Positions 10,619-48,899 of a DNA stretch of 48,899 bases are shown one piece after another. Position 1 is the first letter of the stretch; the number at the start of each line of letters is the position of its first letter. The notes under the pieces are model-generated. The model saw only the letters and a list, made by a program, of their open reading frames with translations. It searched no databases and was not told where the DNA came from. The stretch is from assembly GCA_021768625.1 (NCBI GenBank), contig JAETUM010000018.1, positions 1 to 48,899 on the forward strand, in the 5' to 3' direction. Made by a program: the position numbers and the translations under genes. Origin of the DNA: Candidatus Stoquefichus sp. GTDB taxonomy: Bacteria; Bacillota_I; Bacilli_A; Erysipelotrichales; Coprobacillaceae.

Positions 10619-13600
10619 ATGAAAAAGTTCAATTATAAAAATTTTTTATTTATATCGTTATCTTTTCTTCTTGTTTTTTCAATAATATTTGGAAGTGGTT
10701 TTGTTTCAGCTAATGAAGATATTCTTGAAAATTCTATAGTAGATTCTGAGCAAGCAGAATTAGAAGATACGGAAAATGAAGAAAAGAAAGATGAAAAAGT
10801 ACAAACAAAAGATAGTTTATCATTCTCTAAACAACAGAAGGTAAATAATTTGAGTGATGGAAAATCATCAAGCAATTCTACTAATGGTATAGAACCATTA
10901 GCAGATGAACCAGATGTAGATTGGAGTACAACAGAAACTACGGCTGGAGATTTTGTAATTATAGGAGGACAACCAAATGTAGACTATTCATTTGCGAGTA
11001 ATATACTTACGATTTTAACAAATCGTACATTAACGTTAAAAACAACAAAAACAACTGCACAAAGAATAGTTGTGCCAGTTAATGTAGAGGCAAATCTTAT
11101 TTTTGATGGAGTAAATATTACAACTTCAAGCAATAGTCCTTTTACATTGACTCCTGCAGTTGGAGGAGGAGCAAAAGCTCACATTATTCTAGCTGATGGA
11201 AGTAGTAATACTTTAAAAGGAGTTGCGAATTATCCAGCATTACGTTGTGGAAGAACAACAACATTAGTCATTGATGATGGAGTCGTTAATAAAGATAGTA
11301 ATGGTAATGCAATTGTTCCTGAATTGGGAAGAGTTCCTTATGATGTCACTTTAATGAATGGAACTCAATTAAAAAAAGGAGATCGTTTAACATTATTAGA
11401 TAGTAAAAACCCTGGGACATTAACAACTACAGGTAGTACATTTGCAGCTGCAATTGGTGGTGGAGCTGGTGAAGATGCAGGTAATATCACAATTAATGGT
11501 GGAATCATTAGTGCTACAGGTATTACAGGAAATAGTTTAAATAATGGTGGTGCAGGTATTGGTGGTGGAAGTAAAGGTTCTGGAGGAGATATTACTATCA
11601 ATGGAGGAACTATTACAGCACATGGTTCATATCATGCCGCAGGGGTTGGTGGTGGATACCATACAAGTTCTACACCTAGTTGTGCAGCATTGTCACCAGC
11701 TGTTGTTCCATCAGGGACATATGGAGCTAAAAGTGGAAATATTACAATTAATGGTGGATTAACTTATTCTTATGGTGGGTCACATGGTAATGCTTTTGGA
11801 GATGGATGTACTGGTTATAATACAAATGATAATTTTAAAGTAATTATGACAGGTGGTACAGTTTTACCTTCATCACCGGGAGGTTCTTATAGAGATTTAG
11901 GTGGTTCTCGAGCTAATGTATATATCTTAGGTGGATCACTTAAAGCAACCACATTTTCTAGTATGGGTGGTGCCATAGCGTATGGAGATATGGAACAGAA
12001 GACTCAAGTTTTTATGACTCAAATTAATTTGAGTGGTTATAATTTACCAACAATGCTAGTTGACGATATGAAAATTGCAGTTAATGGAGTGACTTCTGAT
12101 TACGGACTACCATCATATACAGATGAAACTGGATCATTATATTTCTGGTTACCAAGCAGTACAGATGGTACATCAACAGAAGTACGTGTTGATGTAGATG
12201 TATTGAATCAAGAAGGAAAAGTGGAACCTATGGATTCTTTCTTCGTTACTGATGCAACACAAGGATCGTTATTAAAACAGTATATCAATTTTGAAATAGA
12301 TACAAAAGACTTACAAGATAATGAACGCCTTATTAAAAAATATGATGGAAAAGAATTCTCATCAGAGGATCAATTAAATTTCTTAAGGGCTATTTTAGGA
12401 GAAAACGCAGGGATACCTGTCACACATCCAAGCAATGGGAAATTAACTGATGCTTCAAAAATGACTATTCAATCACAATTGTTAGATGAGAATCTAGAAC
12501 CAGTTGAAGATGCAGAAATTGTATCAGGAACAAGTGCAGGAGTTGGAAAATATCAGTTAATCATTACATCAAGTGAATATGCTAATATAGCAGGATTCAA
12601 AGAAAGTTTCTGGGGACATAGATGTTATTATAAATATGCAGAAATCATTCCAGCAGATAGTAAGGTAACAATAACAGCAACTAGAGAGGGAGACAGCACA
12701 AATGCAGATCAGATGGTCACAATGGTAGCGGATGTTGCTCCAGGAAATGGAGAAGCAACAACATGTGCAGCACCATCAGGGAAGGTACAATTCTATATTA
12801 ATGGAAAGAAATATGGAGAACCAGTAGTGTTAGTACCAAATGAAGATGCAAGTGGAGATGGATATATACATAGTACAGCACAAATCCAATGGACACCAAC
12901 AGATAATGGAGGAATCTATAGTGTAGATGATATCCAAGAAGTCACAGTAGAATATTTAGCTGGCGATGATACAAATTATACAACGAGTGAAGCAACACCA
13001 GTCAAATTTAAGGTGACACCAGTAGATCAAGGTGATGAAGAAAAAGGGAAGACACCAATCGAAGTAACAGTTGATGACAAACAAACTGTTGATGGTGAAA
13101 GAATAGAGAAGGTTTATGGAGATGAAGATCTTAAAATCGAACTTACAAAGGGAGATACAGATATTAAACCAATCTATAAATCTTCAGATGAAAGTATAGC
13201 AACAGTAGATGAAGAAGGAAATATACATATTGTAGGGGTAGGAGAAGTTGTTATTACAGCAACAAGACCAGGAAATGGAGCATTTAATGAATCATCACAA
13301 ACAGTAATACTGGAAGTTGCAAAGAAAAAGATAGAAGTAGAGAGTCTAGATATACTTGATAAGATGTATGATGGAAACACAGAAGCAAAGATAGATTTAG
13401 ATAAATTAATTCTATCAGGAGTGAAGAAAGAAGATATTGAGAAGTTAAAAGAATCATTAGAAATTATATCAAAATTCCCAAGTGAGAAAGTAGGAAAATA
13501 TCCAAATGCAAGTGCAGAGATTAAGCTAAGTAAAGAATTCTATGAAAAGTACTACTTTGAAACAAAGACAGGAAAGAGCGATAAAGTTATAGTAGAAGAT

Positions 13601-14590
13601 GAAGCAAGCATTAAAATCAGAAAGATAGATGAAAGCGATCAAAATGGAAACAAGGTAACAGTAGAAGCCATTCCAAGACAAAAATACACTGGAAAAGAAA
13701 TCGAACCAGAGTTAGTAGTTAAAGATGGAGAAAAGGTACTCAAAGAAGGAGTAGACTATACAGTAGAGTATAGAGATAACATTGAAGCGGGAACTGCTAT
13801 AGCAATAGTCAAGGGAAAAGGAAATTATACATCAACAATAGAGACTGAGTTTATTATCTATAAAATTAATATTGATACAGACGGTGATGGAAAGCCAGAT
13901 ATCAATATCGATACAGATAATGATGGAGAACCAGATATTAATATTGATACAGATAATGATGGAAAACCAGATATCAATATAGATACAGATAAAGATGGAA
14001 AACCAGACATTAATATTGATACAAATGGTGATGGAAAGCCAGACATTAATATTGATACAAATAAAGATGGAAAACCAGATTTAAATATTGATACAAATAA
14101 AGATGGAAAACCAGACATCAATATAGATACAGATAATGATGGAAAACCAGATATCAATATAGATACAGATAACGATGGAAAACCAGACATTAATATTGAT
14201 ACAAATGGTGATGGAAAGCCAGACATTAATATTGATACAAATAAAAATGGAAAACCAGATATTAATATTGATACAGATAAAGATGGAAAACCAGATTTAA
14301 ATATTGATACAAATAAAGATGGAAAACCAGATTTAAATATCGATACAAATGGTGATGGAAAGCCAGATTTAAATATTGATACAAATAAAGATGGAAAGCC
14401 AGATATTAATATTGATACAAATGGTGATGGAAAACCAGATATTAATATTGATATTAATGGAGATTATATAGCTGATAAAAATTTAGTTAAAACATCAGAT
14501 GATACATCATTGATAGTGCCAATAATGATAGGAATTGTATCATTGGTAGGTATAGTATGTTTATTAATTATAAAAAAGAAAAAGGATTAG
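10619..14590 (+). CDS. Large secreted, membrane-anchored surface protein with beta-helix, Ig-like and calcium-loop repeats
   Basis: The 1,323-residue protein starts with a signal peptide (about residues 1-32, ending near GFVSA). A low-complexity Glu/Ser linker follows, then a Gly-rich region with recurring ITINGG and AGIGGG segments (about 150-450) that suggests a right-handed beta-helix. Ig-like domains follow: a BIG2-like segment (KSSDESIATVDEEGNIHIVG), a YDG-like segment (LDILDKMYDGNTEA) and a KYTGKEIEPELVV segment. Residues 1083-1286 are 17 tandem 12-residue repeats. The end has one membrane helix and a KKKKD tail. I see no LPxTG; NLVKTSDDTS just before the helix may be a degenerate sorting motif. 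Role is probably adhesion or glycan binding, which is inference. Confidence 0.85.
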   Translation: MKKFNYKNFLFISLSFLLVFSIIFGSGFVSANEDILENSIVDSEQAELEDTENEEKKDEKVQTKDSLSFSKQQKVNNLSDGKSSSNSTNGIEPLADEPDVDWSTTETTAGDFVIIGGQPNVDYSFASNILTILTNRTLTLKTTKTTAQRIVVPVNVEANLIFDGVNITTSSNSPFTLTPAVGGGAKAHIILADGSSNTLKGVANYPALRCGRTTTLVIDDGVVNKDSNGNAIVPELGRVPYDVTLMNGTQLKKGDRLTLLDSKNPGTLTTTGSTFAAAIGGGAGEDAGNITINGGIISATGITGNSLNNGGAGIGGGSKGSGGDITINGGTITAHGSYHAAGVGGGYHTSSTPSCAALSPAVVPSGTYGAKSGNITINGGLTYSYGGSHGNAFGDGCTGYNTNDNFKVIMTGGTVLPSSPGGSYRDLGGSRANVYILGGSLKATTFSSMGGAIAYGDMEQKTQVFMTQINLSGYNLPTMLVDDMKIAVNGVTSDYGLPSYTDETGSLYFWLPSSTDGTSTEVRVDVDVLNQEGKVEPMDSFFVTDATQGSLLKQYINFEIDTKDLQDNERLIKKYDGKEFSSEDQLNFLRAILGENAGIPVTHPSNGKLTDASKMTIQSQLLDENLEPVEDAEIVSGTSAGVGKYQLIITSSEYANIAGFKESFWGHRCYYKYAEIIPADSKVTITATREGDSTNADQMVTMVADVAPGNGEATTCAAPSGKVQFYINGKKYGEPVVLVPNEDASGDGYIHSTAQIQWTPTDNGGIYSVDDIQEVTVEYLAGDDTNYTTSEATPVKFKVTPVDQGDEEKGKTPIEVTVDDKQTVDGERIEKVYGDEDLKIELTKGDTDIKPIYKSSDESIATVDEEGNIHIVGVGEVVITATRPGNGAFNESSQTVILEVAKKKIEVESLDILDKMYDGNTEAKIDLDKLILSGVKKEDIEKLKESLEIISKFPSEKVGKYPNASAEIKLSKEFYEKYYFETKTGKSDKVIVEDEASIKIRKIDESDQNGNKVTVEAIPRQKYTGKEIEPELVVKDGEKVLKEGVDYTVEYRDNIEAGTAIAIVKGKGNYTSTIETEFIIYKINIDTDGDGKPDINIDTDNDGEPDINIDTDNDGKPDINIDTDKDGKPDINIDTNGDGKPDINIDTNKDGKPDLNIDTNKDGKPDINIDTDNDGKPDINIDTDNDGKPDINIDTNGDGKPDINIDTNKNGKPDINIDTDKDGKPDLNIDTNKDGKPDLNIDTNGDGKPDLNIDTNKDGKPDINIDTNGDGKPDINIDINGDYIADKNLVKTSDDTSLIVPIMIGIVSLVGIVCLLIIKKKKD
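13865..14476 (+). repeat. 17 tandem 36-bp repeats encoding calcium-loop-like 12-mers
   Basis: Each 36-bp unit encodes a variant of INIDTDNDGKPD. Seventeen units run head to tail without interruption, the last degenerate (INIDINGDYIAD). The D-x-D/N-x-D-G-x-x-D spacing matches calcium-binding loops of thrombospondin type 3 and EF-hand-like repeats. Several unit types recur (TDNDG, TNGDG, TNKDG, TDKDG), with larger blocks duplicated, suggesting growth by unequal exchange. Copy number is likely variable between strains. Confidence 0.95.
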
Positions 14591-29958: not shown

Positions 29959-30570
29959 ATGATAAAAAAACTAATTGTTGGAAATATGCAAACAAATTGT
30001 TATGTTTTGTATAATGATAATCATCAATGTATTATTGTAGATCCTGGTGATCAAGGCCAAAAGATTTCTAAATATATTGATGAAAATGAATTAAAGTTAT
30101 TAGCAATTCTTTTAACCCATGGACATTTCGATCATATAGGAGCAGTAGATTATTTATATCAAAAGTATCATTGTCCTATTTATACACATCAAGAAACCTT
30201 GCCACTTTTACATCAATCAAAATTGAACTTATCTTCTTTTGAGATCCCTTTTGTTGTAGATTCACCAATTAAGATAGCAGATACTCAACTTCAAATAGGT
30301 TCATTTCAATTCGTTTGGATGTTATTAGAGGGACATTGTCAAGGAAGTAGTATGATTTATTATCCAGCTGAAGATATTTTATTTAGTGGTGATGTCTTAT
30401 TTAAAGGTTCAATAGGAAGGTATGATTTTCCAACATCTTCTCATTTTGAAACAAAAAAGAGTTTAGAAGTTATAAAAAATTTGAATTTTGAAGCTAAGAT
30501 TTTACCAGGGCATGGGGAAGAATCAACACTTACATATGAAAAAAAATATAATCCTTATTTAAAGTCATAA
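29959..30570 (+). CDS. Metallo-beta-lactamase-fold hydrolase, glyoxalase II-like
   Basis: A 203-residue protein with the zinc motif THGHFDH at residues 53-59, later ligands in EGHCQGSSM and FSGDVLFKGSIGRYDF, and PGHGEEST at the C-terminus. This is the YcbL/YqgX type of short glyoxalase II-like hydrolases common in Firmicutes. The substrate may be a hydroxyacyl-thioester but is not shown by sequence. It lies directly upstream of the comG operon, as yqgX does in some Bacilli. Confidence 0.88.
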   Translation: MIKKLIVGNMQTNCYVLYNDNHQCIIVDPGDQGQKISKYIDENELKLLAILLTHGHFDHIGAVDYLYQKYHCPIYTHQETLPLLHQSKLNLSSFEIPFVVDSPIKIADTQLQIGSFQFVWMLLEGHCQGSSMIYYPAEDILFSGDVLFKGSIGRYDFPTSSHFETKKSLEVIKNLNFEAKILPGHGEESTLTYEKKYNPYLKS

Positions 30571-30643: not shown

Positions 30644-31630
30644 ATGGATGAATTATTTGAGAAAATTTTTTTTAGAGCAATACAAAAGCATACAACAGAT
30701 ATACATATGATTTTAAAGGAAAAGTTATCAATTCGATTTCGAGTCTTAGGCGAGTTGATTGATTATGATGAACTGGAGCATGACTATGGAAGTAAACTGC
30801 TAAATTACTTAAAGTATAAGGCTTCTATTAATACAAATTATAGATTATTACCTCAAACTGGTCAATTTTCCATTGTTTACAAGAAAAAAGAATATTATTT
30901 AAGAGTTTCTTTTTTACCATCTACTAATTTTGAAAGTATTGTTATACGTATACTTAACAATCATGATCCATTAACTATTGATCAGATTTCTTATTTATCT
31001 GAAATTTCTTCATTTCTTCATAAAGTTCCTTACTTTTCATCAGGACTTATTCTTATAAGTGGAGCAACAGGCTCAGGGAAGTCAACAACCCTCTATACTA
31101 TTCTTGATGAAATTATAAGAACTCAGAGGAAGAATATTATAACAATAGAAGATCCAATAGAAATGAGAAAGGAACATTGTTTACAAATAGAATTAAATGA
31201 TAAATTAGGAATAACCTATGAAAATACTCTTAAACAAATTCTGAGGCATGATCCAGATGTTATTATGATTGGAGAAATAAGAGATAGTCAAACTGCTCAG
31301 ATAGCTTTGACTTGTGCGTTGACTGGACATCTTGTATTAACAACGATACATGCAAGTAATGCTTTTTTAGCATTAAAAAGATTTGAAAATTTAGGTGTTT
31401 CTAAATTAGATATTGAAGATGTAGTCATTGCTTCTTTAGCTCAAAAGATAAAATATGATCATCATAATAATGAAGTTATTATTTTGGCTGAATTGATGAA
31501 AAAAAAGAATATTATTGAATATTCTCAAAATCAAAATATTCAATATAACACATTTATTAATAATGCTAGAAAATTGATTGAGGAGAAAAAATATGATCAA
31601 GAATTATTTGAGGAAATAGGATATGAATAA
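30644..31630 (+). CDS. comGA: Competence pilus assembly ATPase ComGA
   Basis: A GspE/PilB-type secretion ATPase that powers assembly of the DNA-uptake pseudopilus at the inner face of the membrane. Walker A is GATGSGKSTT at about residue 139-148. It is followed by the Asp box IITIEDPIEM, a Walker B-like RHDPDVIMIGEIRD, and the His box TCALTGHLVLTTIHA. The 328-residue length matches ComGA and it lacks the long N-terminal domain of PilB. It overlaps comGB by eight bases. Confidence 0.94.
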   Translation: MDELFEKIFFRAIQKHTTDIHMILKEKLSIRFRVLGELIDYDELEHDYGSKLLNYLKYKASINTNYRLLPQTGQFSIVYKKKEYYLRVSFLPSTNFESIVIRILNNHDPLTIDQISYLSEISSFLHKVPYFSSGLILISGATGSGKSTTLYTILDEIIRTQRKNIITIEDPIEMRKEHCLQIELNDKLGITYENTLKQILRHDPDVIMIGEIRDSQTAQIALTCALTGHLVLTTIHASNAFLALKRFENLGVSKLDIEDVVIASLAQKIKYDHHNNEVIILAELMKKKNIIEYSQNQNIQYNTFINNARKLIEEKKYDQELFEEIGYE

Positions 31631-32621
31631 AAATATATTATTTTTAGAAAATTTTTATACTTTATTGAATGCAGGCTATAGTGTAGAAGAAACGCTAGAG
31701 TTATGTAAAAATATTATAGATATTTCTATTGTTGATCAATTAATAGGTAATTTAAAATCTGGTGATGATATCTACTCCTGTATTTTAAGTGCACCATTTC
31801 CTAAGATTTTCAAAGAGTATTTCTCATTTTATCAAACAAAGAATTGTTTATCTGACGCAATTGAAAAAAGTTTAAAAGTTTATCAAACAAAAGAAAATTT
31901 TCAAAATCAATTAAAATCTAAAATGACTTATCCTTGTGTTTTATTACTTTTTCTATTCTTTTTTTCGATTTTTGTAGTTGCCATACTATTACCAAACGTT
32001 AATCATTTATTTGAATCTTTTGATATTCAAAAAAGCTTATTTACACAATTTCTTTTTTTAATTTTTCATATTTTTCCTGTTTTTATTCTAATCTTGTTTA
32101 TAGTATTTATTTTTTTAATTATACGATTGTTATATGGACTCAAATATAAGAAGTTTAAGATTATTGAACATTATTTAGAATTTCCTATAATATCAACTAT
32201 TTTACAAAAATATTTTTCATTAAAATTTGCTGTATATTACCATGAATTAGCTATGGAAGATATGGATAGTGCAATGATTATTGATGTATTAAATAAACAG
32301 ATGAATGAGAGTGATATTAAAATTGTTTTATATGAAATGAATAATCGAATGTTGGAAGGAGAAGCTATTGAAACATTGTTAGAGGATTTTGAGTATTTAG
32401 ATCATTTGTTTTTAATATTTTTTAAAATGTATATTAAGAATCCTCAACAATATCAATCAATTGAACATTATATACAATTAACTTATCAAGAAATTGATTA
32501 TTGGATTTCACAATTTATAAAATATTTTGTACCTTGCGTTTATGCTTTTGTTGCTTTGTTTGTTATTACAATTTACATTTCAATTATTATTCCAATGATG
32601 AATGTTGTTTCTGAAATTTAA
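31623..32621 (+). CDS. comGB: Competence pilus platform protein ComGB
   Basis: A GspF/PilC-type membrane platform protein of 332 residues. Three hydrophobic segments are visible: VLLLFLFFFSIFVVAILLP, a second around residues 140-165, and a C-terminal one near 305-327 ending SIIIPMMNV. It contains the family's duplicated cytoplasmic domain, although conservation is low as usual for ComGB. It follows comGA with an overlap and is followed by the interrupted comGC. Confidence 0.88.
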   Translation: MNKNILFLENFYTLLNAGYSVEETLELCKNIIDISIVDQLIGNLKSGDDIYSCILSAPFPKIFKEYFSFYQTKNCLSDAIEKSLKVYQTKENFQNQLKSKMTYPCVLLLFLFFFSIFVVAILLPNVNHLFESFDIQKSLFTQFLFLIFHIFPVFILILFIVFIFLIIRLLYGLKYKKFKIIEHYLEFPIISTILQKYFSLKFAVYYHELAMEDMDSAMIIDVLNKQMNESDIKIVLYEMNNRMLEGEAIETLLEDFEYLDHLFLIFFKMYIKNPQQYQSIEHYIQLTYQEIDYWISQFIKYFVPCVYAFVALFVITIYISIIIPMMNVVSEI

Positions 32622-32636
32622 GAGAGGAGAACTTAC

Positions 32637-32678
32637 ATGAATAAAAAAGGTTTTACATTAATAGAGATGATCTTCTGA
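32637..32678 (+). pseudogene. comGC: comGC major pseudopilin, cut after 13 codons by prophage insertion
   Basis: The gene starts with AGAGGAGA and an ATG 15 bases after comGB. It reads MNKKGFTLIEMIF and then stops. GFTLIEM is the type IV prepilin cleavage and methylation motif that begins every ComGC. The rest of the gene, plus comGD to comGG, is absent here and an integrase gene follows in the opposite direction. The simplest reading is integration inside comGC, with the remainder lying beyond the other prophage end. Confidence 0.9.
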
Positions 32679-32690
32679 ATTTTTGTTAAT
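32655..32690. other. Left attachment site (attL) region inside comGC
   Basis: The junction between bacterial comGC and the prophage must lie in or just after the codons for TLIEMIF, which end at 32,675. The core cannot be delimited because attR and an empty site are not available in the window. Confidence 0.6.
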
Positions 32691-32693
32691 TTA

Positions 32694-32722
32694 AAAAAGT
32701 ATTGAATTAATCAATACTTTTT
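32694..32722. terminator. Bidirectional terminator at the prophage left end
   Basis: AAAAAGTATTGA (32694-32705) and TCAATACTTTTT (32711-32722) form a perfect 12-base stem with an ATTAA loop. A and T runs at both feet allow termination in both directions, stopping comG transcripts from the left and integrase transcripts from the right. Confidence 0.85.
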
Positions 32723-32803
32723 ATGTCATGTTATAGATTTTATTAAAATTTGTCATCAAATTGTTAAAAATAGAGCCTAAATATGTACAAAATAATGTCT
32801 AAA

Positions 32804-33991
32804 TTAATTCAATAGTGGCTTTATATGTTCGTTATATTTTTCTAACAATTCACGTTTTTTCTGATCACTCAAATGAGCGTAGACACTATCTGTCACATCT
32901 GATCCAACAGCATGACCAATCAATTTTTGCAGCATTGCTAAATCTGCATTGTTCTCATATCTATTAACTGTAGCAAAGTAATGTCTTAGCTGATGAAAAG
33001 ATAAACTCTTATCATATTTCTTGTTAAACTTCTTCATGTAATCCTGCATAGCTCGAGGATCTAGTCTGTCTTTATCTTCTCTGGTTAGCAGTGAAGAGGG
33101 GAGATAACCAAAAAAATCAACTGTCATACTTTTCCATTCAAGCAATTTATTTTTCATATCTTGATCAAAAGGATAATCCCTCCTTGAGTATTGGTTTTTC
33201 ATTTCAGTATTCATAACTTTAGACATGTAATCATAACTTTGTCTAAATTCAAATTTCATTTCTTCAAAGTTTATATTATTCCAATCTAGGGCGTAAACCT
33301 CTCCAATCCTTGCTCCTGTAACCAGTCCGATGTCAAAAGCGAGCAGGTGTCCTTGTATTTCATACATACTTACTTTATATCGTTTGTCTTTTCCACATTC
33401 GTTGACTTTACTCAACATATAATTTCTAAATAGCTTCAAATCTTCATTTTCAGGCATTTTAGTTTTCCTTAAGGTTTTCTTACGTCCTTTCGGGTAAACG
33501 AGTAGCTCGCAAGGATTTTCGCTTATATATCCGTGCCTACGAGCAGTAATGAATAACTTCCTAAGAAGGGAACAATTATGTTCATAAACGCTACTATATG
33601 TATTTTTGTTCCAGTCATTCACAACTTCTTGCAATTCATTTAATTTAATTGTTTTGATAAATCTATTTCCTAATAGTGGCTTTATATACTTATTGTATCT
33701 ATTATTAGTATCACGTTTAGTTGCATTAGATTGATGATTATAATCTTTCAGCATTAGATTAAAGATATCATCTAAAGATTTTTTATCATTCTCACGAGAG
33801 GGAACAATACCCTTTTCTGAATATTCTTTATATGCAATAAGTCCATCATTAAAAGCTTCTTCATAACTTAGATATCCACTCTTTGATTTCATATGTCTGC
33901 CTTTGGCATCATAATAATAGAAATACCAGGTATATGTTAAATCGTGTTTTTTAGATTTGCGTTCTAATATTTTTACTGGATAATTTGACAT
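32804..33991 (-). CDS. int: Phage tyrosine recombinase (integrase)
   Basis: A 395-residue tyrosine integrase. The N-terminus (about 10-60) is an arm-site-binding AP2-like domain, followed by a core-binding SAM-like domain (about 70-170). The catalytic domain has Arg228 in TGARIGE, His333-x-x-Arg336 in FHQLRH, His360 in LIGH and the nucleophile Tyr371 in SVYAHLS. All active residues are present. It is transcribed towards the att site. Its neighbour across the junction is comGC, which identifies the integration target. Confidence 0.95.
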   Translation of the reverse strand: MSNYPVKILERKSKKHDLTYTWYFYYYDAKGRHMKSKSGYLSYEEAFNDGLIAYKEYSEKGIVPSRENDKKSLDDIFNLMLKDYNHQSNATKRDTNNRYNKYIKPLLGNRFIKTIKLNELQEVVNDWNKNTYSSVYEHNCSLLRKLFITARRHGYISENPCELLVYPKGRKKTLRKTKMPENEDLKLFRNYMLSKVNECGKDKRYKVSMYEIQGHLLAFDIGLVTGARIGEVYALDWNNINFEEMKFEFRQSYDYMSKVMNTEMKNQYSRRDYPFDQDMKNKLLEWKSMTVDFFGYLPSSLLTREDKDRLDPRAMQDYMKKFNKKYDKSLSFHQLRHYFATVNRYENNADLAMLQKLIGHAVGSDVTDSVYAHLSDQKKRELLEKYNEHIKPLLN

Positions 33992-34149
33992 TGCTATTTA
34001 CCTCGTTTTCATTTGATGTATATTTTTTGATAATAAAATTAATACTTTAAAATTTAGAATAAATCTAAAAAATATCTGTTTTAATATTGTTACAATATCA
34101 TTACATACCCATTAGATAATTTTTTGATTTAGTAATTTCATAAAATTTG

Positions 34150-34184: not shown

Positions 34185-34297
34185 GAAAAAGATATAATAT
34201 ATAAGGAACCTTATTACTAGTTTCCTTTTTATAGCTCATTTACCTAGGGTAAAAGGAGATTCTGGAGACGTCATCGTATGATGGCGTTTTCTGTTTC
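34185..34297 (+). ncRNA. Candidate prophage small RNA with three hairpins
   Basis: A transcript from the promoter at 34150-34178 would run about 110 bases with no open frame. Three stem-loops are visible. AAGGAA (34203-34208) can pair with TTCCTT (34222-34227), followed by TTT. TTTACC (34239-34244) pairs with GGTAAA (34248-34253). CGTCATC (34269-34275) pairs with GATGGCG (34280-34286), loop GTAT, followed by TTTTCTG. The last looks like its terminator and also covers the end of the convergent minus-strand gene. Expression is not shown; the inference rests on promoter and terminator placement. Confidence 0.45.
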
Positions 34298-34795
34298 TTG
34301 AGCCTTTTTATAGTATTCCAATTGGTCATGAAAAGCATGACTGTATGTTAATGGGTATGCAGATACTAGAACAAAATATTTTACTCTTTCCTCTAAAATG
34401 ACAAGATATTTTTCACTTTTTAGTAAAAGTGAATATCGAAATGTATTTCTATATTGCTTTTTCCATATACAATAATTATCACAATTTCCAAGACAATTAC
34501 ATTCCGTGTTATCTATCATAGCTTTTGGCCATTTTATACGTTCACATCGTCTAAAATCAGGGACTCTTTCTTCTATATCTCTATAATGTCCACATGTTAT
34601 GTGAAAATAACTTTCATATTTTCCATTATAAATAGGATGTTTTCTAGGCAAAACAGGTTTACCCATAAATACAGGATTAGAATTTAAAAAGTGATCAGAG
34701 AATATATTATATAAATAATTTTCATACAAATTCCAATCTCCATTAAAATCTTTAAGTTCAATTATTTCTGGGATCCATGAGCATTTATTTTCCAT
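34271..34795 (-). CDS. Uncharacterised Cys/His-containing protein paired with DUF3800
   Basis: A 174-residue protein I cannot assign. It has a central Cys-rich stretch (C-N-C-x3-C-x3-C) and a following block RYSLLLKSEKYLVILEERVK then YFVLVSAYPL. The N-terminal half contains SYFHITCGHYRDIEERVPDF and RCERIKW. The strand-rich C-terminal half with conserved-looking Arg, Glu and Tyr residues recalls small phage-borne nucleases of the PBECR/RelE-like type, but this is only an impression. It overlaps the upstream DUF3800 gene by 11 bases, so the two are made together. Confidence 0.75.
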   Translation of the reverse strand: MENKCSWIPEIIELKDFNGDWNLYENYLYNIFSDHFLNSNPVFMGKPVLPRKHPIYNGKYESYFHITCGHYRDIEERVPDFRRCERIKWPKAMIDNTECNCLGNCDNYCIWKKQYRNTFRYSLLLKSEKYLVILEERVKYFVLVSAYPLTYSHAFHDQLEYYKKAQETENAIIR

Positions 34796-35498
34796 AATCT
34801 GCCTCCCAAGCTAACAAATTGATTTTTCTTTCTTTAGAAAGAGTAGTACGTGTTAGAGAATAACCACTAAGTTCTTTAATATGATTACAAATAGCTTGTT
34901 TAGCACTTCCAATATTTTCGTCATTTGGAAAAATTCTATTTGCATATGCCATAGCTCCAACAAATATATCTACAAGTTGCATAATTTGAACTTCATGTGA
35001 TCTAATTGGTTGTATTTTTCTTATAACTCTTGCATTAAAGTCATATTGTGAATGTCTAATAACTTCTAAAAGTTTTTGTGATTTTTGATATGAATTTGTA
35101 TCTTTGATATCTATATAAATGTTGTGTGAGTCAAAAGGATGAAGAATAGTTTTTAGCATATTAAAATACATTTTATAGTACCACTCATCATGTGTTTGAT
35201 TATATAATTTATGGTTTAATTTTTGTTTATCTTTAATAATTACACATCTAAAGGATAAATCGTCATCTTGAAAAAAATAATCTATTAAATCAATATACAG
35301 TCTTATATTTGCTGGACTAATTTTTGTCCATTTTACTTCAGAATTTATACTAATATGATTCTTTTCTTTAATACGAATGATATTTTTGTTTATTTCCTTT
35401 ATTTTATCTTTTGCACAATATATTGCACCAATAGTCATAGAATTACTTTTATCATGTTCTAAATGGCAGCTTTCATCACAATATATATTATATTCCAT
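34785..35498 (-). CDS. DUF3800 domain protein, predicted RNase H-like fold
   Basis: A 237-residue protein with the DUF3800 pattern. YCDES at residues 6-10 gives the first acidic pair, NIYIDIKDTNSYQKSQKLL is in the middle, and SHEVQIMQLVDIFVGAMAYANR lies at the C-terminus, where the Q-x3-D is characteristic. DUF3800 proteins are thought to have an RNase H-like nuclease fold and occur on phages and in defence islands; their role is unknown. AAAGGAGGAATT precedes its ATG. Position between the repressor region and the integrase is typical of lysogenic conversion or superinfection-exclusion cargo. Confidence 0.8.
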   Translation of the reverse strand: MEYNIYCDESCHLEHDKSNSMTIGAIYCAKDKIKEINKNIIRIKEKNHISINSEVKWTKISPANIRLYIDLIDYFFQDDDLSFRCVIIKDKQKLNHKLYNQTHDEWYYKMYFNMLKTILHPFDSHNIYIDIKDTNSYQKSQKLLEVIRHSQYDFNARVIRKIQPIRSHEVQIMQLVDIFVGAMAYANRIFPNDENIGSAKQAICNHIKELSGYSLTRTTLSKERKINLLAWEADYGK

Positions 35499-35514: not shown

Positions 35515-35952
35515 TTAAAAATTATTTAATGAATACCATATCTCTAAAGGTATTCCTTTTTCTTTTACAATAAAATCAAAATTTCCTATGTCCTGTAAAT
35601 CTTCTTTGTTTAGATCAGAGAAGAGTAGGCAACAGGCGAATTTATTTGCTTCACGTTCTAATCTTCCTTTATACATTCCTTTTAGAAAGTAAAAACTTAT
35701 ACTCTCGTCGTGATGAAGAATGTAATGCCCGATTTCATGGGCAATCAAAAAATTCTCATATCTATAATCTAATCCATTTTTGAGAAATATAGAAAAATGA
35801 TTATTGTAGTTTTTAATCAAACAAGATTCTGTTCTTTTGTTTTTGAAGTTTTTATGATTTAAATCAATGTTTAAAATATCAGCTAATTCTCTAACATTAG
35901 ATGTTCCATACTTAGAAATTAAATCTTCAGATGTCTTTAAAATTGTATTCAT
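35515..35952 (-). CDS. ImmA/IrrE family metallopeptidase
   Basis: A 145-residue zinc peptidase with H72-E-I-G-H76 in the segment LIAHEIGHYILHHDES. It also has a downstream REANKFACCLL region whose Glu is the likely third ligand. In ICEBs1 and many Gram-positive phages the ImmA protein cleaves the cognate repressor to trigger induction. It lies 20 bases downstream of the CI-like repressor in the same direction. That repressor lacks a LexA-type self-cleavage domain, which fits ImmA-mediated induction. Confidence 0.9.
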   Translation of the reverse strand: MNTILKTSEDLISKYGTSNVRELADILNIDLNHKNFKNKRTESCLIKNYNNHFSIFLKNGLDYRYENFLIAHEIGHYILHHDESISFYFLKGMYKGRLEREANKFACCLLFSDLNKEDLQDIGNFDFIVKEKGIPLEIWYSLNNF

Positions 35953-35972
35953 AATACAGCACTCCTTATATT

Positions 35973-36410
35973 TTATTTCTTGTGCTTTTTTGCCATGATT
36001 CTCAACATGTCAGCCACATCTTCCGCCATATCCATAATTTCATCATCTTCCATCAGTTCCAAGTCATATCCTCCAAAATTTGCAATCATAGGTTGTTCAA
36101 GAATAAACTTAATAGCATCTTGAGGTGTTTCAAAGTATTCTGGAATATTAGAATTAGAATCATAATTATTTTTTTCAGGTATATATCCACTAATCTGTAA
36201 TAAAGTATCTAATGATATATTCATTGCATTGCTAATTTGTTTTAGCGTTTCAATAGTAGGAGATACAGGTTTACTTGTCCTTGGATCTATACCGTTTTCT
36301 AATTTGTTTAAATAAGTATGACTAATGCCTAAATATTCTGAAAAATCTCTTAAACTCATGTTTTTTTTCTTTCTCTCTTTTCTTAAAAATTCTCCTAGCT
36401 TGTTATCCAT
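35973..36410 (-). CDS. CI-like phage repressor (XRE helix-turn-helix)
   Basis: A 145-residue repressor. The N-terminal HTH runs from LGEFLRKERKKKNMSLRDFS through EYLGISHTYLNKLENGIDPR. The C-terminal part is acidic, with no S24 peptidase motifs. The ATG at 36410 is used because AGGAGG on the minus strand is eight bases upstream; a GTG nine bases earlier is less likely. It diverges from the Cro-like gene across a 150-bp region containing four operator copies. Confidence 0.9.
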   Translation of the reverse strand: MDNKLGEFLRKERKKKNMSLRDFSEYLGISHTYLNKLENGIDPRTSKPVSPTIETLKQISNAMNISLDTLLQISGYIPEKNNYDSNSNIPEYFETPQDAIKFILEQPMIANFGGYDLELMEDDEIMDMAEDVADMLRIMAKKHKK

Positions 36411-36433
36411 GTATAACACCTCCTACATAAAAT

Positions 36434-39101: not shown

Positions 39102-41051
39102 ATGAAACTATTAAATATGAAACTTGAGAATTTTCAAGGCATCAAGCACTTAGAGCTAAATTTTAACGGATTGAACAAATCAATTCATGGTGACAACGCG
39201 ACAGGAAAGACAACAATTGCCAATGCACAAGCATGGTTATTAACTGGCAAATCATCGGACAACAGAAAAAACTATACTCCAAAGACAGAAAATGCACATG
39301 GATTGGAACATTCAGTTGAATGTACATATTCAACTGAAAATGGAATTATCATATTGAAGAAAGTTCTTAAAGAAAAATATACAAAGAAACGAGGTTCAAC
39401 AACTGCCGAGTTTAGTGGTCATGTTGTTGAATATTACAAAGATGGAGTACCAGTCAAAGAAAAGGAATTCAATGACTATTTGATTGCTACATTTAGGAAT
39501 TTAGAAAACATTCAATTGCTAAGCAATATTTTCTACTTTGCAGAGGTCATGAAGTGGGATAAGAGAAGACAACTCTTGATTGATATGTGTGGTGACTATT
39601 CAGATGACTACATCATTGCTAGCAATCCTGATTTGATTGATTTGAAGAATATTCTTCGAAAAGATGGAACCGCTGATCAATATCATACCGTCGATGATTT
39701 TATGAAGATGACAAAGGAACGCATGAAGAAGACAAATAGTGAAATGCAGTCTATTCCTGCAAGAATCGATGAAGCAACAAGAGCTATTCCTAATATTAGC
39801 AATCTTAGCAAAGAGGATCTAGAGCAAAAGTTGCATGGTAACAATTCAAGAATAGATTTGCTTATAAAAGAAAAGATAACTCTTGATTCATCAGATGATG
39901 AACAAAAAAAGAAAGATGAATTGATCAGGGATATTCAGACGCAAATCAAGGAAGCACGTATTGATCATCAAAATGAGTTTTCAAATAAGGCAGGTGCTGT
40001 CCAAAATAAAATCAATGAGATTTCTTCTCAAGTCAATGATATTCAGATGAAAATTTCAAATGTGAAAAGACGTATCAGAAATGCTGAAAATGATTTGAAC
40101 TATATGACTAATAGGAGAAATCAACTATTAGATGAATATAAAGAAGTCCAAGCAAAAGAATGGGATACTTTAAAAGAAATATGTCCTACATGTGGCAGAG
40201 TATTACCTGCAGATAGGGTTGACGAGTTGAAAGCAAAATTCAATCTTGATAAATCCAAGAAGCTCGAAGAAATCAATAAGTCAGGTCAAGCAGTTTCTAA
40301 AACTGCTATCCAAGAGCAACAATCGTTGATTGATGAGCTCAATAAGGAAAAAGATGCATTAGGAGCAGATTTCATTCTCAAAAAGCAGAAATTAAGCGAA
40401 TTGGAGCAATCAAAACCTAAAATGGAGCCGTTTGAAGGCACTGAAACTTATAAGGTTCTTCAGGATAAATTAAATAATGCAAACAGCATGTCAGTAAGCC
40501 GTATCAATGCAGAAAGAATTGCAAATATCGATAAAGAAATACATGCATTAGAAGATTCAAATCAAAACATTCAAGAGGACATCAGCAAGTTTTCAACTAC
40601 TGATTATCAGAACAGAAGAATCGATGAATTGAAGGATGCACAAAAAAAGTTGAGTGCCAGCTATGAAAAGATGGAATCAGAAATCTATTTATGCGAACAG
40701 TTCATCAAGGCAAAAGTCAATATGATTACAGAAAATATCAATGAGAAGTTTGAAAACGTGTCTTTTAAATTGTTTGATGTTCAAATCAATGGCGGTTTAA
40801 AGGAATGCTGTGAGGTCATGGTACCAACACCAGGAGGTGCAATGGTTCCTTATTCAACTGCAGCCAACAAGGCAGCTACATTCAATGCAGGACTAGAAAT
40901 AGTAGATGTATTCCAAAAATATTTAGGAATTGAAATACCTATATTCATAGACAATGCAGAAAGTGTCACAGAACTCAAACAAATTGACTCGCAGGTAATC
41001 AGATTAGTAGTAGATAAGAATTATAAAGAATTGACAATGATGGAGGATTAG
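39102..41051 (+). CDS. SbcC/Rad50-like AAA ATPase with zinc hook
   Basis: A 649-residue SMC-type ATPase. The N-terminus MKLLNMKLENFQGIKHLEL precedes Walker A G30-DNATGKT. Long coiled coils flank a zinc-hook motif CPTCG at 361-365. The C-terminal half ends with a Walker B-like IPIFIDNAESV. It lacks the canonical long signature loop of SbcC. Beside RecT it is likely part of the phage recombination and end-processing machinery. Codon use here is less A/T-biased than in flanking genes. Confidence 0.85.
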   Translation: MKLLNMKLENFQGIKHLELNFNGLNKSIHGDNATGKTTIANAQAWLLTGKSSDNRKNYTPKTENAHGLEHSVECTYSTENGIIILKKVLKEKYTKKRGSTTAEFSGHVVEYYKDGVPVKEKEFNDYLIATFRNLENIQLLSNIFYFAEVMKWDKRRQLLIDMCGDYSDDYIIASNPDLIDLKNILRKDGTADQYHTVDDFMKMTKERMKKTNSEMQSIPARIDEATRAIPNISNLSKEDLEQKLHGNNSRIDLLIKEKITLDSSDDEQKKKDELIRDIQTQIKEARIDHQNEFSNKAGAVQNKINEISSQVNDIQMKISNVKRRIRNAENDLNYMTNRRNQLLDEYKEVQAKEWDTLKEICPTCGRVLPADRVDELKAKFNLDKSKKLEEINKSGQAVSKTAIQEQQSLIDELNKEKDALGADFILKKQKLSELEQSKPKMEPFEGTETYKVLQDKLNNANSMSVSRINAERIANIDKEIHALEDSNQNIQEDISKFSTTDYQNRRIDELKDAQKKLSASYEKMESEIYLCEQFIKAKVNMITENINEKFENVSFKLFDVQINGGLKECCEVMVPTPGGAMVPYSTAANKAATFNAGLEIVDVFQKYLGIEIPIFIDNAESVTELKQIDSQVIRLVVDKNYKELTMMED

Positions 41052-41054
41052 AAA

Positions 41055-42038
41055 ATGGATAACAAAAAGAATGAAGCTACACATGCTGTAGCAAAAGCGA
41101 ACAAAGGTTTTAGCGCAATCATGATGGGAGAGGTTGATAAGATAGCACAATATTCAGGAAGTGCATTATCTGTAAAGGACAGAAGCTTTGCGCAGGATAT
41201 TATTTTGTCAACCTATAAAAGAATGATTGAAGAAAACATAAATCCCAATGATGTGAATTTTATAGGATGCAATTTCCCAGGTCAGGTCAAAAGATATGCC
41301 CGTTTGGGATTGTCGCTTAATGAAAATGAAATATGGCTAGATATTAGAAACAATTCAAAAGCAAACAAGAAAGATATAAATATCAAGATTCAATATCAGG
41401 GTGAAGAAAAACTACTTACAAAATTCTGTCAAAAAAATAATGGAGTCATCAACATCATTAAAGATGTCATCATGGAAGGTGAAGAAGTTGTGACTTCTCG
41501 TGATTTCAAGACAGGAAATTATGTGATATCTGATCATAAGATTCCTGATATTCTACATAGAAATATCAATAGTGCAAATAAGGAGAGTGTCATTGGTGCA
41601 TATGCCATCGCCTATCATAAAGATGGAACTCAGACAGCAGTGATTATTGACAAAGATAGGATTGAACGCGCTATGAAAGCGGCGCAAACCAAAATTATAT
41701 GGACGGCAGATTATAAAAAAATGGTCCTAAAGACTGTTGTTCATGAACTTTATAAGGAACTCGCTAAATTCAATGTCATTCCTGATGAACTACTTAATGA
41801 TTATCGAGAAATGGTCTTGAACAAAGATGAAGTTCAAGTAGAAATCAATGCAAATGCAAACAGTGAAGTTTTTGAAGCGGATTTCGATATAAAAGATGAT
41901 CAACCATCACATCAAATCGAACAGGAATCTGCAAGTCCTACAGTCAATATGGAAACTGGAGAAGTTTTAAAAGAAAAAGATTCTGTTAAACGAGATCAAT
42001 ATACATATCAACAGCAATCACTAGAGGAACCATTCTAA
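41055..42038 (+). CDS. recT: RecT-family single-strand annealing protein
   Basis: A 327-residue recombinase that anneals complementary single strands. The RecT core spans about residues 10-245, with YKRMIEENINPNDVNFIGCN, GQVKRYARLGLSL, VIGAYAIAYHKDGTQTAVI and KTVVHELYKEL. The C-terminus after about 260 is acidic and probably disordered, a place where partner proteins such as SSB bind in related systems. It begins three bases after the ATPase stop and its stop overlaps the next start. Confidence 0.9.
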   Translation: MDNKKNEATHAVAKANKGFSAIMMGEVDKIAQYSGSALSVKDRSFAQDIILSTYKRMIEENINPNDVNFIGCNFPGQVKRYARLGLSLNENEIWLDIRNNSKANKKDINIKIQYQGEEKLLTKFCQKNNGVINIIKDVIMEGEEVVTSRDFKTGNYVISDHKIPDILHRNINSANKESVIGAYAIAYHKDGTQTAVIIDKDRIERAMKAAQTKIIWTADYKKMVLKTVVHELYKELAKFNVIPDELLNDYREMVLNKDEVQVEINANANSEVFEADFDIKDDQPSHQIEQESASPTVNMETGEVLKEKDSVKRDQYTYQQQSLEEPF

Positions 42039-42763
42039 TGGAAATCAAGTGTATTGGAAGTGGAAGCAAAGGTAATGCCTATCTTGTCAATGATGGGCAT
42101 TCCACTTTATTAATCGAGTGTGGTGTTCAATTTAAAAAAATCCAACAGGCTTGTGGATTCAAAACTAATAAGATATTGGCTTGTTTGATTACTCATGAAC
42201 ATAAGGACCATTGCTTATGTGTTAAAGAGATCCTTAAAAGAGGAATTCAAGTTGTATGTACAAAAGGTACTGCATTTGCATTAGGAATAGAAAGTCATCC
42301 ATATGTTCTAACAGTCAAATATGGCCATGTTTATAGTTTTGGGAATTTAACAGCAATAGCGTTTGAAACACAGCATGATGCCATTGAACCATGTGGATTT
42401 ATGATTGATGATATGTCAGATTATATATCAACATTAGACAATAAGCGCATACCAAAACAGAGGCTTATTTATCTCACTGATTCATATTACTGCAGATACA
42501 GATTCAAATATGTGACGGATATCATGATTGAATGCAATTATGATGATATATCATTGATCAACAGTGATGATAATTTATCCTTAAGAAAGCGTGTGTTGAA
42601 ATCACACATGAGTTTGGAAAATTGTATTGAATTTCTTAAACTAAATGACTTAAGCAAAGTTGACTGTATTCACTTGATACATCTAAGTGACAGGAACAGT
42701 GATGAAGAGAGAATGAAAAGAAAAGTGGCAGAAGCTACAGGTAAGAGGGTAGTAGTGTTTTGA
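42038..42763 (+). CDS. Metallo-beta-lactamase-fold phosphodiesterase, candidate phage nuclease
   Basis: A 241-residue protein with GSGSKGNAYLV at the N-terminus and the zinc motif THEHKDH at residues 52-58. It also has AFETQHDAIEPCGF, YLTDSYYCR and KSHMSLENCIEFL. This is the YycJ/WalJ branch, which in Bacilli is a DNA-processing exonuclease-like enzyme. Encoded directly after an ATPase and RecT, it may supply the exonuclease step, which is inference. It starts on the RecT stop codon. Confidence 0.85.
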   Translation: MEIKCIGSGSKGNAYLVNDGHSTLLIECGVQFKKIQQACGFKTNKILACLITHEHKDHCLCVKEILKRGIQVVCTKGTAFALGIESHPYVLTVKYGHVYSFGNLTAIAFETQHDAIEPCGFMIDDMSDYISTLDNKRIPKQRLIYLTDSYYCRYRFKYVTDIMIECNYDDISLINSDDNLSLRKRVLKSHMSLENCIEFLKLNDLSKVDCIHLIHLSDRNSDEERMKRKVAEATGKRVVVF

Positions 42764-42787
42764 AAAAGATAGAAAGGAGTTGAGACA

Positions 42788-43630
42788 ATGAATGGATACG
42801 ATAAAGGCTATATAACATTATATCGAAAGTTCAAGAACTGGCGGTATTACAAAAACGACAATATTAAGTCTGTATTTATTCATTGTCTTCTTTCTGCTTC
42901 TTGGAAAGATGAAGTTATCACAGAATATAAAGGTCGTTCTATCAATCCACCTATAACCATTAAAAAAGGAAGTTTTATAACTTCAAGGAGTAGATTGTGC
43001 AAAGAACTTGGAAAAACTGATATGGAAATTCGTTATGCTTTAGACAAATTAAGTACAACCAACAAAAATACCAACAGTTGTACCAAGGAAATTACTCTCA
43101 CTACAACCAAGTTATATACTGTGATAAGTATTGATAGTTACAAGGATTTTCAGCCTTTTTTAAAAATGCTACAACCAAGTGATAATGGTGTTGAACAACC
43201 AAGTAAACAACCAAGTGAACAACCACATATTAATAAAGATATAAATAATAAAGATATAAAAGATAAAAAAGATATAAAAGATAAAAGCACTGACGTGCAT
43301 TTTAGAAATCTTAATTCTTTAACTATTAAGTTATTAAAGAGTGGCTATATCGATGAAAGTGAAGTACCAGAAACATACAATCTTCTGTTTGAGGAATATC
43401 TTGAGGAATATGACTATTCACATTTGAATGTCGTTGTTGGCTACATACTCAAGAGAGCCAATCCAAACAGGATAAAGAACAAGTATTCTTATTTAAAGAA
43501 AGCCATTAATTCAAATCTCAAGAAGCTGGAGCAGCTTAAGCAGAAACAGAATGAAGATGATTATATAGGTGAACCGACACCAGATGCAAAGAAGCGTTTG
43601 TCCGAGCTGTTAGACAAGTTAGATATTTAG
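42788..43630 (+). CDS. Phage replication initiator (replisome organiser, DnaD-like)
   Basis: A 280-residue protein. The N-terminal 110 residues, YITLYRKFKNWRYYKNDNIK through the SRSRLCKELGKTDMEIRYAL winged-helix region, match phage replisome organisers. The middle is a Gln/Pro/Ser then Lys/Asp-rich linker encoded by short DNA repeats, (E/K)QPS units then KDIKDK units. The C-terminal part from about residue 175 (LLKSGYIDESEVPETYNLLF) resembles a helicase-loader-interacting domain. The DNA repeats in the linker are an origin candidate. Confidence 0.82.
   Translation: MNGYDKGYITLYRKFKNWRYYKNDNIKSVFIHCLLSASWKDEVITEYKGRSINPPITIKKGSFITSRSRLCKELGKTDMEIRYALDKLSTTNKNTNSCTKEITLTTTKLYTVISIDSYKDFQPFLKMLQPSDNGVEQPSKQPSEQPHINKDINNKDIKDKKDIKDKSTDVHFRNLNSLTIKLLKSGYIDESEVPETYNLLFEEYLEEYDYSHLNVVVGYILKRANPNRIKNKYSYLKKAINSNLKKLEQLKQKQNEDDYIGEPTPDAKKRLSELLDKLDI
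43103..43293. other. Candidate phage replication origin inside the initiator gene
   Basis: Four exact copies of ACAACCAAGT begin at 43103, 43171, 43195 and 43207, and a partial copy (ACAACCA) begins at 43219. The last three are spaced 12 bases apart. They are followed by an almost pure A/T tract with repeated AAAGATATAAA units to about 43,290. Iterons plus an A/T-rich unwinding region within the initiator gene is the layout of the lambda origin in gene O. Confidence 0.6.
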
Positions 43631-43645
43631 AAAGGAATGATAATT

Positions 43646-43981
43646 TTGAAATATCACAAATATAGAAATGAAAAGGTCAAATATGATGGTCACACATTCG
43701 ACAGCCAGAAAGAATGCCAGAGATACATAGATTTAAAACTTCTGCAGAGGGTAGGAGAAATACGTGATCTAAGACTACAGTATAAGTTCATTTTGCAGGA
43801 CGGGTACGTATTTCAAGGCAAGAAGATTCAAGCAATTACATACATTGCCGATTTTGTTTACTGGGATGTAGGAAAAGGCTGCATGATAGTAGAGGATGTC
43901 AAAGGATTTAAAACAGATATCTACAAATTAAAAAAGAAATTGTTTGAGTACAGATATGGAATCCCAATCCAAGAAATCTAA
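43646..43981 (+). CDS. DUF1064 family phage protein (predicted nuclease fold)
   Basis: A 111-residue protein beginning MKYHKYRNEKVKYDGHTFDS, with QKECQRYIDLKLLQRVGEIR, then YIADFVYWDVGKG, VEDVKGFKTDIYKLKKKLFE. This matches DUF1064, a family from phage replication modules with a restriction-endonuclease-like D...E-x-V-K pattern (here D followed by VEDVKG). The TTG at 43646 is favoured because AAAGG is ten bases upstream; the ATG at 43637 is too close to that site. Confidence 0.85.
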   Translation: MKYHKYRNEKVKYDGHTFDSQKECQRYIDLKLLQRVGEIRDLRLQYKFILQDGYVFQGKKIQAITYIADFVYWDVGKGCMIVEDVKGFKTDIYKLKKKLFEYRYGIPIQEI

Positions 43982-45304: not shown

Positions 45305-45811
45305 ATAGAACTTAAAGAATTATGCGAAAAGACACTAAAACTATTTGATATTGATGATATTAGAAGTTTAAGAAATCAGTTATATAAAGTAACCATGAAT
45401 CATGATGTAGATAAGTTAAGAAGGTTTAAAGAAATAATAAATGATGATTTATCGGTTGACTGGTTGCAAAAGATTTTTCAATATTATGAGGCTGACAGGA
45501 AAGAAAAAATGCAAGATTATACTCCAATAACTCTTGCAAAATTTGTTGGAAAACTCGCTAAGCACAAAGATATTATCGATATGTGTGCTGGAAGTGGAGC
45601 GCTAACGATTCAAAAGTGGAATCTAGATCATGATTGTAAATTTATACTATATGAATTCGATGAGAATGTAATTCCTTATCTTTTGTTTAATTTGACAATC
45701 AGAAATATTGAAGCTGAAGTTTTTCAAATGGATGTGTTGTCTCAAGACGTATTTAGAGAATATAAACTAATCAAAAGCGAAGAATTTAGCAAAGTTGAGG
45801 TGACTAAATGA
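45305..45811 (+). CDS. N6-methyltransferase, N-terminal subunit with AdoMet motif (ATA at expected start)
   Basis: This frame contains the AdoMet-binding motif DMCAGSGAL and the preceding YYEADRKEKMQDYTPITLAK, as in HsdM-like N6-adenine methyltransferases. AAAGGAGTG (45288-45296) is well spaced from position 45305, where the codon is ATA, followed by ELKELCEKTLKLFDIDDIRS. From memory homologues begin M-E-L-K-E-L, so ATA replaces the expected ATG. The first ATG, at 45395, would remove 30 residues and has no ribosome site. From ATA the protein is 168 residues. It lacks the NPPY motif, which is in the next gene. Confidence 0.7.
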   Translation: MELKELCEKTLKLFDIDDIRSLRNQLYKVTMNHDVDKLRRFKEIINDDLSVDWLQKIFQYYEADRKEKMQDYTPITLAKFVGKLAKHKDIIDMCAGSGALTIQKWNLDHDCKFILYEFDENVIPYLLFNLTIRNIEAEVFQMDVLSQDVFREYKLIKSEEFSKVEVTK

Positions 45812-46818
45812 TTACAACAATCTCAAATCCACCATATAACATGAAATGGGAAGAACCAATATTTGCTCAAACACAAGAACGTTTTTCCCATACAGAAGTT
45901 CCACCAGAAAGTAATGCGAATTTAGCATTTGTATTAACAGCATTAGATGAAAGTGATAGATGTATATTTATATTGCCATGTGGTGTTTTATCTTCCAACA
46001 ACAAAAAAGAAAAGGAAATTATGAAGTATTTGATTGAATCTAATTTTATAGAAGCTGTTATCGTTTGTCCTGATAAAATGTTTGAAGCAACAAATATACC
46101 AACATGTATTATCGTATTTGATAAACATAAAACAACTTCAACAATAGAACTTCTTGATATGAGAAATAAATATGAAATAGAAGTAAGAGAACAAAATGGA
46201 CAATTTGGTGGAAACAGTCATACAAATAGAACTTATAAAAAAGAAGTCAAAGCATTTACTGATCAGATAATGAATGAAGCCATTTTTTGCATTGAAGAAA
46301 GAAAAAATATTGCTGAATATTGCAAATCCGTATCTATTGAAGATGTGAAGAAACACGATTATATATTAATTCCAAGTAGATATATTGATTTTGTTGAACA
46401 AGAAACTTTACATAGAGAATATAAAGATATTGTTAATGATTTGAATAGAGTTATTAGAGAAAAAAATAACTGTAAATTAACGATAAATGAGACATTAGCC
46501 AAAAACTTAGGATTTGATATAGAACTATATAAGCAGGATCATATACAAGATAAAGAATTGAATGATCTTATAAAACAATTATCAGGAGAAAAGATAGAGA
46601 AACACAATTATTTTTCTACAACAAAAAACAAAAATGAAATTAAATTTGAAAACAATAGTAAAGAACAGCTATCAAGTGTATTGATAATGATATTTAATAT
46701 GTGGAAACAACATTTATATTATTTGAACATTGAAGAAAATAGGTATTTAGCAGAGTTACGTGATGCTTTGTTGCCTGATTTAATGAGTGGAAAGATTGAT
46801 ATAGGAGGAAATAAATAG
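45808..46818 (+). CDS. N6-methyltransferase, catalytic NPPY subunit
   Basis: A 336-residue protein that begins MITTISNPPYNMKWEEPIFA, placing the catalytic NPPY motif at residues 7-10. It continues with CIFILPCGVLSSNN and VVCPDKMFEA-like and PTCIIVFDK segments of HsdM-type enzymes. The end, LRDALLPDLMSGKID, resembles the C-terminus of type I specificity/modification subunits. The ATG overlaps the stop of the AdoMet-motif gene by four bases. Together the two make a full methyltransferase in two chains. No restriction subunit is present. Confidence 0.85.
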   Translation: MITTISNPPYNMKWEEPIFAQTQERFSHTEVPPESNANLAFVLTALDESDRCIFILPCGVLSSNNKKEKEIMKYLIESNFIEAVIVCPDKMFEATNIPTCIIVFDKHKTTSTIELLDMRNKYEIEVREQNGQFGGNSHTNRTYKKEVKAFTDQIMNEAIFCIEERKNIAEYCKSVSIEDVKKHDYILIPSRYIDFVEQETLHREYKDIVNDLNRVIREKNNCKLTINETLAKNLGFDIELYKQDHIQDKELNDLIKQLSGEKIEKHNYFSTTKNKNEIKFENNSKEQLSSVLIMIFNMWKQHLYYLNIEENRYLAELRDALLPDLMSGKIDIGGNK

Positions 46819-48531: not shown

Positions 48532-48785
48532 AAAAAATAATGATTAGTGTATTAACAGTGTTTATGTTAGCTAGTTTGAGTGGATGTGCAAGAACTAAAA
48601 CGAACGAAGATAATATACAAGAAACATCTAGATTTGTCATTATAGAAGATGGTGCTACATGGAATGTTGTTTATGATAAAGAGACTAAAGTCATGTACAC
48701 TGTAAGTTCTGGAGTGTATAATTGTGGAAATTTTACAAAGATGGTAGATAGTGATGGTAAGCCATTAATTTATAAAGGAGAGTAA
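48528..48785 (+). CDS. Phage-encoded lipoprotein, DUF6440-like
   Basis: An 85-residue protein with a lipoprotein signal (MKKIMISVLTVFMLASLSGC, lipobox SLSGC, Cys20). The mature domain has SRFVIIEDGATWNVVYDKET, KVMYTVSSGVYNCGNF and DSDGKPLIYKGE, the pattern of DUF6440. Small lipoproteins on prophages can act in superinfection exclusion, which is inference here. Confidence 0.75.
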   Translation: MKKIMISVLTVFMLASLSGCARTKTNEDNIQETSRFVIIEDGATWNVVYDKETKVMYTVSSGVYNCGNFTKMVDSDGKPLIYKGE

Positions 48786-48800
48786 TAAGGAGGAATAGAT

Positions 48801-48899
48801 ATGGAGACACTAGATGCAGATTTACTAGAAAAATTAGAGGTAGATTTACTAGAAAAATTAAAAGAGTCAGGAAGAGTACATTCTCTTGAATTATTACGT
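48801..48899 (+). CDS. Start of a further phage gene (partial)
   Basis: Thirty-three codons from an ATG with AAGGAGG upstream, running off the window edge. An in-frame duplication is visible: ADLLEKLE and VDLLEKLK, encoded by a repeated GATTTACTAGAAAAATTA. Identity cannot be judged. Confidence 0.55.
   Translation, partial: METLDADLLEKLEVDLLEKLKESGRVHSLELLR

Follow-up and report, generated by a model that had tools for sequence, protein, structure and literature searches.

The comG operon and its comGC stub

The window analysed here is one whole contig of 48,899 nucleotides (C124), belonging to an assembly of 138 contigs and 2.92 Mb, and the start of a comG operon is situated in its right third. 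The operon is preceded by a gene for a metallo-beta-lactamase-fold hydrolase (29959–30570, forward strand; PF00753, 1e-31), which is the usual upstream neighbour of comG in the group of the host and occupies the same place in its relatives. The pilus assembly ATPase gene comGA (30644–31630, forward strand; PF00437, 2e-74) and the pilus membrane protein gene comGB (31623–32621, forward strand; PF00482; 332 amino acids) are both intact. Their best NCBIfam matches are ComGA (NF041000; 275 bits, cut-off 300) and ComGB (NF041012; below cut-off), respectively, and ComGB aligns over its full length with its relatives. The gene order, with the metallo-beta-lactamase gene upstream and, in several relatives, efp downstream, matches the description given for Erysipelotrichales (PMC12786226). 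One relative (G017) has two extra open reading frames between comGB and comGC (L090:3161-4046). Elsewhere on the window, a gene coding for 1323 amino acids (10619–14590) has a C-terminal stretch that resembles MSCRAMM surface adhesins.

The third gene, comGC (32637–32678, forward strand), has a ribosome-binding site at its start and ends after MNKKGFTLIEMIF, its 13 codons being followed directly by TGA (ATG AAT AAA AAA GGT TTT ACA TTA ATA GAG ATG ATC TTC TGA), with the prepilin motif GFTLIEM retained and the remainder lost. When a comGC query from the family was used, only residues 1–19 matched at this stub, running across the stop codon, whereas in other genomes of the family the same query aligned from residues 1–4 through to residue 99 in 38 of 42; of the other four, one comGC is cut by a contig end (G024) and three genomes gave no convincing match. 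The ComGC of one relative passed the NCBIfam cut-off for this family. A search of the readable genome with the N_methyl family returned the stub and a weak match within a 1265-aa frame only, and a comGC protein search returned nothing else convincing; the possibility of an old duplicate beside a second, intact comGC was therefore rejected for the readable sequence. The original prediction that comGC stops right after its prepilin region is thus borne out both by our reading and by the comparison with relatives, except that the pseudopilin gene is better described as interrupted than as removed.

Between the stub and a convergent integrase gene lies a hairpin (32694–32722) with a 12-bp stem and A/T tracts on both sides (fold of -10.8/-11.2 kcal/mol). 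This had been proposed as a bidirectional terminator, for which it is a plausible candidate, although the hairpin is A/T-rich and was not flagged by a consensus terminator scan. The integrase that had been predicted beside the stub is indeed present (32804–33991, reverse strand; 395 amino acids) and is of the tyrosine class (PF00589, 2e-16; phrog_1, 7e-41), with an intact frame in which the residues R..HxxR..H..Y can apparently be read. Searches at high similarity of the GTDB genome contigs, of IMG/VR and of the family gave no relatives of this integrase, and its matches in phage records were all below 60% identity, the top ones among the matches listed being at about 25%. Neither the integrase nor a comparable insertion was found in other genomes of the family. 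Two candidates for recurrent occupation of the comGC site in the family were rejected, as the partial comGC of G024 is cut by the contig end and the decayed comGC fragment of G010 lies beside a transposase, with no prophage. The G010 fragment (L087:4003-4182) adjoins an IS30-like transposase gene and lies about 18 kb from an intact comG operon.

Beyond the integrase, PADLOC matched two overlapping genes (34271–35498, reverse strand) to the candidate anti-phage system PDC-M04, with PDC-M04B at 34271–34795 (3e-57) and PDC-M04A, a DUF3800 protein, at 34785–35498 (1e-86), so that this cassette sits between the integrase and the repressor. Lysogeny genes for an ImmA/IrrE-type protease and a CI-type repressor follow (35515–36419, reverse strand; PF06114 and PF01381; phrog_87 and phrog_8), and then replication and recombination genes (39102–43981, forward strand) that were assigned through PHROGs to SbcC-like, RecT-like and DnaD-like proteins, a metal-dependent hydrolase and a Holliday-junction resolvase. 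The left arm reaches the end of the contig and keeps the order of a temperate phage, with integrase, repressor, replication and recombination genes. Further along, a phage DNA methyltransferase (45395–46818) is present as two open reading frames that overlap at ATGA and match consecutive parts of one PHROG family, indicating a split or frameshifted gene.

Taken together, we consider it probable, at roughly 85%, that a temperate phage integrated site-specifically into the prepilin codons of comGC, interrupting the gene and splitting the operon. The predicted separation of comGA and comGB from the rest of the operon holds at the left junction.

Putative late genes and the right end of the prophage

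The window stops at a 116-base assembly node (48784–48899, forward strand) common to C124 and C46, the latter carrying the integrase and early genes of a second prophage. Two late modules, C36 and C50, begin with one common 116-base node, the shared node being entered by C124 and C46 and left by C36 and C50. At the right end of C50 is the 3' end of a gene for a GGGtGRT protein, an imperfect copy of which lies on the integrase side of C46; read as an att repeat, this 3' end pairs C46 with C50 as the second prophage and, by elimination, leaves C36 to the comGC prophage. C36 codes for terminases, portal, capsid, tail sheath, tape measure, tail fibre and endolysin, and would therefore provide the comGC prophage with the late genes of a phage with a contractile tail. 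With C36, the comGC prophage comprises 16.2 kb, the unread node and at least 23.9 kb, and it looks gene-complete at about 41–43 kb. The right end of C36 had no match in viral contigs. A tRNA-Arg (CCT) lies just 5' of the terminase genes of C36 (L096:129-203). The second prophage (L035 on C46, L178 on C50) leaves the GGGtGRT-protein gene intact, unlike comGC. Two other contigs with shared ends, C126 and C93, were rejected as alternative phage modules since they look foreign and Bacteroidales-like. The two share both ends with each other (L135 on C126, L146 on C93), and by eye they carry Bacteroidales-like lipoproteins, which makes them probably foreign contigs in the assembly.

The remainder of comGC would be expected, together with attR, at the right end of the prophage, which lies beyond C36. 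Three protein searches of the readable contigs found neither this remainder (comGC') nor comGD–GG, but all 17 of the contigs shorter than 3 kb that were fetched (27 kb) read as N and the missing comGC'–GG stretch is only about 1.7 kb, so that its absence is uninformative. The same consideration bears on the strongest alternative, in which the prophage entered comGC and the stretch from comGC' to comGG was then deleted or rearranged, making the interruption permanent. The absence of these genes from every readable contig is consistent with such a loss, as is the setting of nusB: in one related genus this gene comes shortly after comGG, but on C44 it is preceded by the apparent end of a gene for a cell-wall-anchored protein. 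However, a stretch so short could fall among the masked contigs, and both neighbours, C36 and C44, stop at contig breaks. We regard a permanent loss of this kind as unlikely.

Probable integration at the prepilin codons

The junction was aligned, ungapped and anchored on the prepilin motif, with the comGC genes of 26 relatives. The attL region (32649–32693, forward strand) comprises 27 nt that correspond to comGC codons 5–13, where the window agrees with relatives at 18–25 of the 27 bases, and a further 18 nt of imperfect comGC likeness. These 18 bases, TGAATTTTTGTTAATTTA (32676–32693), agree with the comGC of relatives at a mean of 12.0 positions, and at 14 in the best case; of the positions in the phage DNA further downstream, used as background, only 6e-5 attain this mean and 5e-4 this best value. 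Over the 18 bases beyond 32693 the agreement drops sharply to 2–8 positions, the level of the background. The comGC likeness that extends 18 nt past codon 13 before falling to background places the crossover within an imperfect att core over the prepilin codons, one side of which is an inexact copy of comGC from the phage and within which the crossover is not placeable to the base. The insertion had been predicted to lie exactly after the prepilin motif; comGC was indeed hit there, but the comGC-like sequence continues to 32693. An imperfect inverted repeat (32652–32668 and 32679–32695; 13 of 17 positions) extends across the junction around GATCTTCTGA, making GATCTTCTGA a candidate core site with the layout expected for a tyrosine recombinase, although this is only suggestive because 25 of 500 local shuffles equalled it. 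Neither attL or left-arm DNA patterns nor comGC as a prophage flank were found in viral contigs.

The comGC likeness of the 18 nt after codon 13 might also have arisen if comGC in a non-transforming lineage had already been lost through a point mutation at codon 14 (TGT to TGA), with the phage entering later, some 18 nt beyond it, in which case the phage itself would not be the cause of comGC inactivation. This would crowd a nonsense change, together with changes at residues that are invariant in relatives, into six codons, and the intact state of comGA and comGB argues against an earlier decay of comGC. The 18 nt are more simply read as an imperfect attP arm; for the pneumococcal comGC prophage the attL and attR cores are reported to differ by 2 nt in 11 (PMC10383233). 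A prior mutation is therefore improbable in our view.

Under site-specific integration, the reading that we prefer, the tyrosine integrase of the phage would recombine attP with an attB formed by the conserved codons of the prepilin motif, close to the comGC start, and integration would place a stop codon and the hairpin directly after codon 13. With both in that position no ComGC pilin would be produced, and the operon would be split into comGA–comGB and comGC'–comGG. The right end of the prophage would join comGC from about codon 14 onward, at a junction that repeats part of TTTACATTAATAGAGATGATCTTCTG. As nothing of the pilin beyond its leader and first residues is left in the stub, the outcome expected is the same as for pneumococci with a comGC prophage, that is, the lysogen is probably unable to assemble the DNA-uptake pilus and not transformable, and precise excision would restore comGC and transformation. 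The phage would likely gain a target that almost every related host carries and, in addition, protection against removal by incoming phage-free DNA.

Known competence-gene prophages and possible convergence on comGC

Prophages in comGC/comYC are known from S. pneumoniae, S. mutans, S. parauberis, L. lactis and S. agalactiae (PMC4774983, PMC7698700, PMC11357604) and render pneumococci non-transformable (PMC7600539), so the streptococcal precedents invoked in the original prediction are real (PMC7600539, PMC8637289, PMC4774983, PMC10383233). The integrase class reported for them is serine, both for Int2b (PMC7600539) and in a table for S. agalactiae (PMC11357604), and the prophages of S. mutans, S. 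parauberis and L. lactis have integrases that resemble the pneumococcal integrase (PMC4774983). In pneumococci the core is ACCAACATCTCCACCAA, whose reverse, TTGGTGGAGATGTTGGT, codes for LVEMLV (PMC8637289). Pneumococcal prophages of group 2b / PPH100 (Int2b) thus occupy the same 5' comGC site over the conserved prepilin codons, LVEMLV overlapping the LIEMIF found here, but they use a serine integrase where the present phage has a tyrosine integrase, the present host is presumably outside the Streptococcaceae, and the late module attributed to the present phage codes for a contractile tail. Given its tyrosine integrase, for which no close relative was found, the comGC prophage described here falls outside the Int2b group, but appears to work in the same way. 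The prophage SpST71A of Staphylococcus pseudintermedius also disrupts the comG operon (PMC7029219), its target being the middle of comGA and not, as here, the start of comGC. A limited text search of the literature found no comGC prophage with a tyrosine integrase.

The comK prophages of Listeria (A118/phi10403S type) likewise lie in a competence gene, in their case the regulator gene comK and not a pilin gene, and their regulated excision has been shown. A similar active lysogeny, in which the phage is a reversible switch whose excision restores comGC and DNA uptake, would be compatible with an intact integrase frame and an apparently gene-complete phage, yet we doubt it strongly and do not assume such a role here, because in the pneumococcal strain BM6001 about 3% of cells regained comGC through excision of the prophage and no transformants were recovered (PMC10383233).

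The suggestion that different phages have converged on the prepilin codons is strengthened by the use of serine integrases in streptococcal phages and of a tyrosine integrase in the comGC prophage described here. We lean towards the view that serine and tyrosine recombinases evolved independently to the same comGC codons, since the DNA of the prepilin motif is unusually well conserved and the knock-out of transformation would protect the prophage. While prophages in comGC are already known, a case with a tyrosine integrase, apparently outside the streptococcal group, appears to be new. It also hints that DNA uptake by transformation may operate in this group of gut bacteria, from which we found no report of it. 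The comGC prophages are a principal line of evidence for the view that mobile elements shut down transformation in order not to be cured, but the published cases considered here rest on related serine integrases and may therefore trace back to a single evolutionary event inherited by descent. An insertion at these codons by a phage with a tyrosine integrase, in a distant host, would have arisen independently, and selection for the block of transformation could then be told apart from the merely inherited taste of one integrase.
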